Assembly: GCA_017550445.1 (NCBI GenBank)
Contig: JAFZOV010000055.1
Coordinates: forward strand, 1 to 8,887
Origin: Fibrobacter sp.
GTDB lineage: Bacteria > Fibrobacterota > Fibrobacteria > Fibrobacterales > Fibrobacteraceae
Reading direction: 5' to 3'
Length of the DNA stretch: 8,887 bases
Part shown: positions 1-8,602 of the stretch, in pieces
Layout of the letters: each line of letters opens with the position of its first letter
How positions within the stretch are numbered: position 1 is the stretch's first letter
The notes under the pieces: generated by a model
What the model was told of the DNA's origin: nothing
What the model saw: the letters and a program-made list of their open reading frames with translations, nothing else
Databases searched by the model: none
Position numbers and translations under genes: made by a program

Positions 1-90
1 GTTATTGACTCTTTTTGTGTTCTTGGTTTGTTGTGCCGTAGCCGACACGAGGCAGCACATCAAGGCTGCAATAATCAAAGATTTTTTCAT
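1..90 (-). CDS. Secreted protein of unknown function, N-terminal 30 codons only
   Basis: The frame opens with ATG at 90 and is open to the window edge, so only 30 residues are visible. It begins MKKSLIIAALMCCLVSATAQ: a lysine-rich n-region, a hydrophobic core at about residues 4-17 and a plausible signal peptidase I site after SATA, followed by a polar QQTKNTKR stretch. There is no good lipobox despite the CC pair, so export to the periplasm or outside is more likely than lipidation. No Shine-Dalgarno sequence precedes the ATG. It lies 11 bases after the stop of the truncated tuf frame and could be translated by reinitiation from it. It is probably read from the tRNA promoter, since no terminator is visible between. 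The function cannot be judged from this fragment. Confidence 0.7.
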   Translation of the reverse strand, partial: MKKSLIIAALMCCLVSATAQQTKNTKRVNN

Positions 91-101
91 TGTATTAAAG
101 T

Positions 102-140
102 TTAATTGGGCTTGCTTCTGTCAAAATGTTCTTTTGCCAT
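102..140 (-). pseudogene. tuf: Remnant of an EF-Tu gene (first 11 codons plus stop)
   Basis: On the minus strand a GGAG ribosome binding site (149-152) stands 8 bases before an ATG at 140. The frame reads MAKEHFDRSKPN and stops at TAA (102-104). MAKExFxRSKP is the hallmark N-terminus of bacterial EF-Tu, which normally continues HVNIGTIGHVDHGKT. The reading breaks right after the proline, and none of the GTPase domain follows. The position fits exactly: tRNA-Thr(GGU) directly precedes tuf in the classical Thr-Tyr-Gly-Thr-tuf operon. The simplest reading is a deletion that removed nearly all of this tuf copy, with an intact copy presumably elsewhere. The remaining 12-codon frame still has its ribosome binding site and may act as a translated leader for the gene behind it. 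Confidence 0.8.
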
Positions 141-163
141 TATTCTATCTCCATTTTAGTGAG

Positions 164-235
<72 letters not shown>

Positions 236-241
236 TTATAT

Positions 242-274
242 AGCTCGCTGATGCGCTCTCTGCATCAGCGAGCT
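242..274. repeat. Perfect 13-bp hairpin in the tRNA operon spacer
   Basis: Arms 242-254 (AGCTCGCTGATGC) and 262-274 are perfectly complementary around a 7-base loop. Read on the plus strand the stem is followed by TTTT, so it could end antisense transcription. In the direction of the tRNAs no T-run follows, so it should not stop the operon. It occupies the place where tRNA-Gly usually sits in this cluster. It could be an RNase processing hairpin, a plus-strand terminator or a dispersed palindrome. The structure is certain but its role is not. Confidence 0.75.
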
Positions 275-281
275 TTTATCG

Positions 282-364
282 TGGGCCGTCGTGGTTTCGA
301 ACCACGGTAGGCGTAAGCCAACGGATTTACAGTCCGTCCCCTTTAACCACTCGGGCAACGACCC
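282..364 (-). tRNA. tRNA-Tyr(GUA)
   Basis: This is a minus-strand cloverleaf of 83 bases with the long variable arm typical of bacterial tRNA-Tyr. The acceptor stem GGGTCGT pairs with ACGGCCC with one wobble. The anticodon stem ACGGA/TCCGT holds loop CTGTAAA with anticodon GTA. The variable arm contains the short stem GGC/GCC, and the T-arm CGTGG/CCACG has the normal loop TTCGAAA. The discriminator is A, and CCA is not encoded. It lies between tRNA-Thr(UGU) and the spacer hairpin. Confidence 0.96.
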
Positions 365-374
365 ATTATGTCTA

Positions 375-447
375 AGCCAAAGATAGGAATCGAACCTACG
401 ACCGGCTGATTACAAATCAGCTGCTCTACCAGCTGAGCTACTTTGGC
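375..447 (-). tRNA. tRNA-Thr(UGU)
   Basis: This is a minus-strand cloverleaf of 73 bases. The acceptor stem GCCAAAG/CTTTGGC is perfect. The D-arm is GCTC/GAGC, the anticodon stem GCTGA/TCAGC has loop TTTGTAA (anticodon TGT, threonine ACA/ACG), and the T-arm GTAGG/CCTAT has loop TTCGATT. The discriminator is T and no CCA is encoded. It is the first gene of the tRNA operon, with the promoter about 40 bases upstream. Confidence 0.96.
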
Positions 448-2121: not shown

Positions 2122-3408
2122 ATGGACCAGCCGCTCGCCGAAAGATTACGCCCCAGGAACCTCGATGAGTTTTTAGGCCAGAACAAGATTCTGGGCGAGC
2201 AGAGCTTGTTGCGCAAAAGTCTCGAAAACGACAACGTGCCAAGCATGATCTTTTGGGGGCCTCCGGGCTGCGGAAAGACGAGCCTCGCCCACGTGATTCG
2301 CCAGCATACCAAGAAGGCGTTTGTAGCGCTTTCCGCGGTGGCAAGCGGTGTGAAAGAAGTCAAAGAAGTCTTGGCAGACGCCCGCAAGATGAAGGCGATG
2401 TTCAAGGACACGATCCTATTCATCGATGAAATTCACCGCTTTAACAAGGGGCAGCAGGATGCGCTGTTGGGTGCCGTCGAGGACGGCACGGTGACGCTCA
2501 TTGGCGCCACCACCGAGAACCCGGGATTCGAGGTCAACAGCGCGTTGCTTAGCAGATGCCAGCTGATTTTATTCGCACCGTTAAGCAAAGAGGACTTGCG
2601 CACGTTGATTTTTAGCGCACTCCGCGACCACCCACGCGGCTTGCAGCTGAAAGACGTTGAAGTTGAAGAAGCTGTTATAGACAAGTTAATCGCGCAGTCC
2701 GATGGCGATGCAAGATTCTTGCTGAATCAGATTGAATGGATTGGCAAGAACCTCGGCGACAAGAAAGTCATTGACGAAAAACTTCTTGAAGAATTCCAAT
2801 ACAAGAAGCCCCTACGCTACGACAAGGGCGGCGAAGAACATTACAACCTGATTTCTGCTTTGCACAAGTCGGTACGCGGAAGCGACCCCGATGCCGCCCT
2901 CTATTGGCTGCACCGCATGCTACAAGGTGGCGAAGACCCCAGGTTCATTCTGCGCAGACTCATGCGCATGAGCATGGAAGACATCGGCCTCGCCGACCCC
3001 AATGCGCTATTGCTTGCCACATCGGCCCGCGAGGCTTACGACTTCATGGGAATCCCCGAAGGCTTGATTGCTCTTGACGAACTCGCGATTTACCTATCGC
3101 TCGCCCCCAAGAGCAACAGCGTGGAACTCGCCGGCATCAAAGCAGATAGCATCGTGAAGCAGACAGGCACGCTCCCCGTGCCGCGCGCCTTCCGCAATTC
3201 AGTCACCAAAGTCGGCGAAAAGCTCGGCTACGGAATCGACTACCAGTACGACCACGACAGCCCCGGCGGCTACTCCGCACAAGAGCACATGCCCAAGCAA
3301 CTTGAAGGCGTCGAAATTTACGAGCCCAAGCCCTACGGCAAAGAAAAAGCCCTCGGCGAACGCCTCGCGCAATTGAAGCAGATTAAAAGAGAGAAGAACG
3401 GGAAGTAA
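2122..3408 (+). CDS. rarA: RarA (MgsA) replication-associated AAA+ ATPase
   Basis: The protein has 428 residues, close to the roughly 440 usual for RarA/MgsA/WRNIP1. The AAA+ core is complete: Walker A GPPGCGKTS at 46-54, Walker B ILFIDE at 98-103 followed by the family-typical IHRFNKGQQDALL, sensor 1 GATTENP at 128-134 and an arginine finger in LLSRC at 145. The C-terminal tetramerisation part has the diagnostic EEHYNLISALHKSVRGSDPDA at 238-258 (pattern quoted for recognition), and the YQYDHDSPGGY motif comes near the end. RarA homologues act at stalled replication forks with the clamp-loader/SSB system. It starts 4 bases after the thioesterase stop with no separate strong ribosome binding site. 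Its stop is 6 bases from the stop of the convergent M48 gene, with no terminator visible. Confidence 0.96.
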   Translation: MDQPLAERLRPRNLDEFLGQNKILGEQSLLRKSLENDNVPSMIFWGPPGCGKTSLAHVIRQHTKKAFVALSAVASGVKEVKEVLADARKMKAMFKDTILFIDEIHRFNKGQQDALLGAVEDGTVTLIGATTENPGFEVNSALLSRCQLILFAPLSKEDLRTLIFSALRDHPRGLQLKDVEVEEAVIDKLIAQSDGDARFLLNQIEWIGKNLGDKKVIDEKLLEEFQYKKPLRYDKGGEEHYNLISALHKSVRGSDPDAALYWLHRMLQGGEDPRFILRRLMRMSMEDIGLADPNALLLATSAREAYDFMGIPEGLIALDELAIYLSLAPKSNSVELAGIKADSIVKQTGTLPVPRAFRNSVTKVGEKLGYGIDYQYDHDSPGGYSAQEHMPKQLEGVEIYEPKPYGKEKALGERLAQLKQIKREKNGK

Positions 3409-8383: not shown

Positions 8384-8413
8384 AGTATCTTATGCAGAGG
8401 CGACTATATCCAA
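8384..8413 (-). promoter_or_regulatory. Tentative lon promoter overlapping the end of the antitoxin-like gene
   Basis: On the minus strand TTGGAT (8408-8413) and GATACT (8384-8389) are 18 bases apart, with transcription predicted to start only about 8 bases before the lon ATG. Neither box is a strong match. lon may instead be read from the promoter upstream of the small module. No heat-shock type element was recognised. Confidence 0.3.
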
Positions 8414-8602
8414 TACGGCGTTCATGTAAGTTTGGTAGGGAATGCCCACAGCCGCAGCCTTGCGCTTTAGCGCATCTACAGTCTTGACCTTCAGCCTTAT
8501 GGAATACATCTTCTTCTCTTCCTTGGACTCCGCAATGGCGCGCCTGATGCGGGCGATGGATTCTTCAAGAGTTTCCGACTCGTGACCACCGGTAATTGTC
8601 AT
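8390..8602 (-). CDS. Ribbon-helix-helix (CopG/BrnA-like) antitoxin-like protein
   Basis: The protein has 70 residues. The acidic, helical N-terminal half (HESETLEESIARIRRAIAE) is followed by YSIRLKVKTVDALKRKAAAV and GIPYQTYMNAVLD. This is the pattern of CopG-type antitoxins: a short strand with alternating residues, helix, then the G-[IL]-PYQT turn and second helix. Such proteins dimerise, bind their own operator and neutralise a small toxin encoded next to them. The ATG at 8602 overlaps the stop of the preceding 42-residue ORF (ATGA) and has AGGGGG in front, so translation is coupled. No intact toxin is visible in the window; only a broken frame lies upstream. Its stop is 19 bases before lon. 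The fold assignment is fairly sure, the antitoxin role less so. Confidence 0.8.
   Translation of the reverse strand: MTITGGHESETLEESIARIRRAIAESKEEKKMYSIRLKVKTVDALKRKAAAVGIPYQTYMNAVLDIVASA

Follow-up and report, generated by a model that had tools for sequence, protein, structure and literature searches.

The tufB operon, tRNA-Thr-Tyr-Gly-Thr-tufB, neighbours the secE and rpoBC operons. Its four tRNA genes ahead of the EF-Tu gene, and the variation in its tRNA content, have been described (PMC8046335). Misassembled ends of contigs have also been described, and these possibly stem from chimeric contigs or PCR-chimeric reads (PMC4270193). The window, by which is meant the whole stretch of 8,887 nucleotides analysed here, can be set beside both of these descriptions: it is very probably a Fibrobacter metagenome contig with a chimeric left end, and the truncated EF-Tu gene found at that end an assembly artefact. 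Base 1 of the window is assumed to be the end of the contig. Judged by the RarA gene (2122-3408), which shares 98% identity with genes of Fibrobacter MAGs, one of them titled sheep rumen, the window is Fibrobacter sequence. Its other genes encode a thioesterase, an M48 peptidase, LemA, an alanine-racemase-domain protein and Lon. The Lon gene is adjoined by a CopG/BrnA-type antitoxin-like gene of 70 aa (8390-8602, minus strand).

The features at the left end of the window are all read on the minus strand and are as follows, from the tRNA cluster down to base 1.

375..447, minus strand: tRNA-Thr(UGU), called by ARAGORN.
281..364, minus strand: tRNA-Tyr(GUA), called by ARAGORN.
163..235, minus strand: tRNA-Thr(GGU), called by ARAGORN.
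149..152, minus strand: GGAG Shine-Dalgarno sequence of tufB, read from the sequence; the same GGAGATAGAATA leader precedes the tuf start in L126 and L130.
109..140, minus strand: opening 32 nt of tufB (EF-Tu); by comparison with relatives, the window's left end has no other tuf sequence.
102..140, minus strand: 12-codon frame MAKEHFDRSKPN-stop, probably made by the junction and absent from the relatives examined.
1..108, minus strand: non-tuf tail with a signal-peptide-like frame that starts from an ATG at 90, has no Shine-Dalgarno sequence and is open at base 1.

A preliminary description of this DNA had noted a GGAG site followed by MAKEHFDRSKP, one further codon and a stop, directly after tRNA-Thr(GGU), and this is confirmed as stated, on the minus strand: the ATG occupies 140-138, MAKEHFDRSKPN runs from 140 to 105 and the stop lies at 104-102, the whole reading MAKEHFDRSKP-N-stop. 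Its recognition of the start of an EF-Tu gene behind a tRNA operon is also borne out, as the tRNA cluster stands directly upstream of an EF-Tu start codon equipped with a Shine-Dalgarno sequence, and 140-109 is the tufB start of a tRNA-Thr-Tyr-Thr-tufB operon. Over these 32 nt the identity with Fibrobacter tuf starts is 97-100% in most matches (no mismatch in 15 and one mismatch in 12 of 27 loci), and the resemblance is therefore not due to chance. The tuf match stops at 109, the third base of the proline codon (108) being C in the window and G in 27 of 27 relatives, and nothing beyond 109, toward base 1, is tuf. A comparison with the intact tuf gene of the genome itself and with the same locus in related species had been expected to support a deletion by an identity that ends sharply near 107; against the relatives the sharp end was indeed found, but at 109, and it fits a chimeric contig as much as a deletion.

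The same locus was compared in relatives, where 34 of 80 loci match the left end of the window. Twenty-seven of these 34 align down to window position 109, 25 of them through the tRNA cluster and the other two (L020 and L021) over the tuf start only, these two being the other tuf copy, which has no tRNAs. The frame goes on as EF-Tu (MAKEHFDRSKPHCN...) in all 27 loci, that is, in 25/25 syntenic loci and in both loci of the other copy, as far as the respective contig reaches. Among the remaining seven loci, five are on contigs that stop before the ATG, and two (L028 and L040) align only down to window positions 147 and 179, respectively, with runs of N (a gap or a mask) over the tuf start and tuf sequence thereafter. 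These N runs across the tufB start of two public Fibrobacter assemblies are located at about 768-797 in L028 and about 8926-8979 in L040. In Fibrobacter, the tRNA genes ahead of tufB are Thr(UGU), Tyr(GUA) and Thr(GGU), in this order; a tRNA-Gly, as it occurs in the four-tRNA operon (PMC8046335), was found neither in window positions 163-447 nor in L126, L130, L134, L035, L016, L019 and L033.

The 32-nt start was also searched in 80 Fibrobacter genomes as a pattern degenerate at three positions (Y, Y and R), and it occurs 122 times in 71 of the 80 genomes. The next three tuf codons follow in 121 of these occurrences, and in the last one (G026:C18) the contig ends 3 nt away. The 12-codon frame was found in none of the 27 loci compared and at none of the 121 testable tuf starts in the 80 genomes. 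Three occurrences of the 32-nt start in each of G017, G037 and G065 could suggest a second, partial tuf-start repeat that is native to Fibrobacter, in other words a conserved short ORF unrelated to assembly, but all nine copies go on as tuf within the sequence shown, and throughout the genus every occurrence that could be tested, 121 of 121, goes on with the next tuf codons, which makes such a repeat extremely improbable. One candidate, G037:C85, with a match of 87% over 52 nt of the query, proved to be an ordinary tuf start.

Two tuf genes score over the family cut-off in G008, G009 and G011, hence in three of 11 Fibrobacter genomes, the other eight being fragmentary; in G011, both tuf copies are listed from position 6. 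The tuf copy in L127 precedes the sequence MAGERIRI, which we take to be the start of rpsJ. As tuf is duplicated, assemblies tend to break in it, and 24 of the 27 contigs (22/25 syntenic ones) end inside tuf, 42-615 nt past the A of the ATG, while G001 and G005 show paired contig ends at the tuf start at equal depth, 99 nt. A de Bruijn graph assembler that meets a repeat would be expected to leave contig ends at equal depth. The break in the window lies 32 nt into the same gene, but there it is followed by 108 nt of other sequence.

In the relatives, tRNA-Trp comes after tufB (L035, L130 and L134), and L035 holds an intact tufB with tRNA-Trp, nusG, rplK, rplA, rplJ and rplL. This gene order bears on the proposal that a deletion with its breakpoint after the proline codon removed tufB, leaving behind a fossil with a possible role as leader peptide. 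Such an event agrees with the sharp end of identity at 109 and with the intact start signal, but it would be expected to bring native downstream sequence up to the breakpoint, and the tail corresponds to none of the genes found there (tRNA-Trp, nusG, rplKAJL); in the 80 Fibrobacter genomes, which do not include the window's own genome, it has no strong match and only short weak ones in four. The claim of a fossil of the tufB locus finds no counterpart in the relatives, where the 12-codon frame is absent, and that of a leader peptide is not supported, given the same lack of conservation and the predicted folding of the 162-nt leader, whose fold energy equals that of shuffled sequences (z 0.08) and gives no support to an attenuator-like RNA structure. 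Loss of tufB by a simple deletion is thus judged highly improbable.

The tail itself begins with 18 nt of A+T-rich sequence, followed by ATG AAA AAA TCT..., and the frame MKKSLIIAALMCCLVSATAQQTKNTKRVNN is open to base 1; this second ATG, at 90, lies 11 nt past the stop of the 12-codon frame. The tail reads as the start of a gene for a secreted protein, with a putative signal peptide and no Shine-Dalgarno sequence. Among signal-like starts, a Shine-Dalgarno 4-mer is present at 31 of 49 in Fibrobacter against 1 of 35 and 0 of 12 in Bacteroidota, the 35 coming from regions mostly picked by their match to the tail, with the four matched starts removed, and the 12 from unselected loci. For all mechanically called genes, the corresponding counts are 157/396 in Fibrobacter and 14/141 and 1/78 in Bacteroidota; the 4-mer is also missing in Fibrobacter from 18 of the 49 signal-like starts and from 239 of the 396 called starts. 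By the log-likelihood ratio of its upstream sequence, the tail leans further toward Bacteroidota than do 395 of 396 Fibrobacter starts, and its score is reached by 22 of 145 Bacteroidota starts, in models of upstream sequence and codons that were evaluated on the genes used to train them. The codon term discriminates poorly, as 13% of Fibrobacter genes reach the value of the tail, and the upstream log-likelihoods under the Fibrobacter set and under the Fibrimonadales and Bacteroidota sets differ by only 1.3 to 3.7 nats. The Bacteroidota training regions of the first composition test were mostly chosen for a match to the tail; in a retest with the four matched starts removed and an unselected Bacteroidota set, the direction of the result was unchanged. 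By these measures of start context, the tail is not typical of Fibrobacter gene starts and appears more Bacteroidota-like.

Searches for the source of the tail point in the same direction less firmly. Up to 10 or 11 candidates per Fibrobacter genome and two per Bacteroidota genome (sets of 397 and 399) were scored, and weak matches are undercounted in the figures that follow. At E <= 0.01, the tail alone gives at least five short matches (24-35 nt of the query) in four of the 80 Fibrobacter genomes; two of these matches also pass E <= 0.001, and none among the matches listed is strong or near-identical. At the site of the best of them, in G055, there is no such gene start. In one Bacteroidota family, the tail has matches at E <= 0.01 in at least 141 of 397 genomes, against at least 4 of 80 in Fibrobacter; at E <= 0.001, the counts are at least 31 of 397 in this family and at least 13 of 399 in a second one, against at least 2 of 80 in Fibrobacter. 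In tail matches the second Bacteroidota family appears hardly above Fibrobacter, and this control with the same query (13/399 vs 2/80 at E <= 0.001) weakens the argument for Bacteroidota. Most of the Bacteroidota matches fall on the A+T-rich stretch around the gene start in the tail, and four of the 20 loci viewed (L138, L160, L162 and L166) are clear starts of secreted-type proteins. In G664, a match of 72% over query positions 2-86 is the start of a secreted-type protein of 176 aa; none of the five other genomes of the same genus matches the tail at E <= 1e-4, and as signal peptides do not tell related genes from unrelated ones, this gene is at most a possible relative of the tail. The tail DNA, searched against overlapping sets of 397, 6, 399, 37, 139 and 58 Bacteroidota genomes, gave only short matches, none of them near-identical among those listed, and the tail peptide gave no near-identical match in 395 Bacteroidota genomes (93 with E <= 1, the best at E 0.017). 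A near-identical source was likewise not found in phages or plasmids, and a 26-nt pattern from the tail has no match in viral contigs. Bacteroidota would be the likeliest, though not a proven, origin of the tail.

The junction at 109/108, the continuation of tuf in the relatives, the habitual ending of contigs in tuf and a tail that is neither tuf nor typical of Fibrobacter gene starts are the grounds on which the left end of the window is read as chimeric. What the window presents is a terminal stretch of foreign appearance, attached at a place where assemblies break in a duplicated gene, base 1 being taken as the contig end. With two tuf copies in the genome, the assembler would have run out of unique path just inside tufB, and a chimeric read or a wrong join may then have added about 108 nt from elsewhere, most likely from a different organism, one whose gene starts are of the Bacteroidota type. 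The 12-codon frame would be an accident of this join, and the real organism would keep an intact tufB.

The same junction could also have formed in a living genome, through an insertion or a horizontally acquired segment that interrupts tufB after codon 11, so that EF-Tu would be supplied by tufA only and the leader, with the 12-codon frame, would precede an acquired gene for a secreted protein. Fibrobacter has a second tuf gene, which makes the loss of tufB conceivable, both leader and start codon are preserved, and the next frame opens 11 nt past the stop; however, tRNA-Trp, nusG and rplKAJL would be severed from the upstream tRNA-tufB unit, the start context of the tail is unusual for Fibrobacter, no strong match to it was found in the 80 genomes, and the arrangement is seen in 0 of 27 loci. 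A real rearrangement of this kind is accordingly considered unlikely. It is very unlikely that a real strain lost tufB by capturing a Bacteroidota-type gene for a secreted protein, that the tRNA-tufB promoter now drives this gene with a 12-codon EF-Tu leader ahead of it, and that tufA is the sole source of EF-Tu.

A separate observation concerns two Fibrobacter genomes in which EF-Tu-derived genes stand beside a contractile injection system gene, at L128:5535-11097 (G057:C1, about 65.5-71.1 kb) and in L131 (G065:C13). An EF-Tu-like protein of 570-571 aa (MAKEHFQRSLPHxNLGFLGAESDRN...) no longer has the G1 nucleotide-binding motif and continues into another copy of EF-Tu domain II, and the G057 protein also has a second domain III (Pfam). 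Its neighbours are a further, divergent EF-Tu of 398 aa and, in G057, also a domain II/III protein of 223 aa. A Pvc16_N gene is next in both genomes, and in G057 it is followed by tail tube, CIS_tube, base_V and gp25 genes and a weak Baseplate_J match (injection-system genes at L186:3044-9914). An injection system beside EF-Tu paralogues without a P-loop is puzzling and looks worth a separate study.

As biology, the truncated EF-Tu gene of the window probably does not matter. Its value lies in a caution, that short-read assemblies break at duplicated genes, tuf among them, and that a chimeric contig end can pass for a clean truncation of a gene, complete with a believable leader peptide; frames that leave the edge of a window at such genes should be compared with relatives before they are called fossils.

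Set against the known systems, the left end of the window resembles the four-tRNA tufB operon in that tRNA-Thr(UGU), tRNA-Tyr(GUA) and tRNA-Thr(GGU) are followed by the tufB leader and start, and it differs from that operon in having a cluster without tRNA-Gly and only 32 nt of tufB. With chimeric or misassembled ends of metagenome contigs it has in common that the non-matching stretch is confined to the terminal 108 nt and that this stretch is joined within a duplicated gene, at a place where the contigs of its relatives also end.
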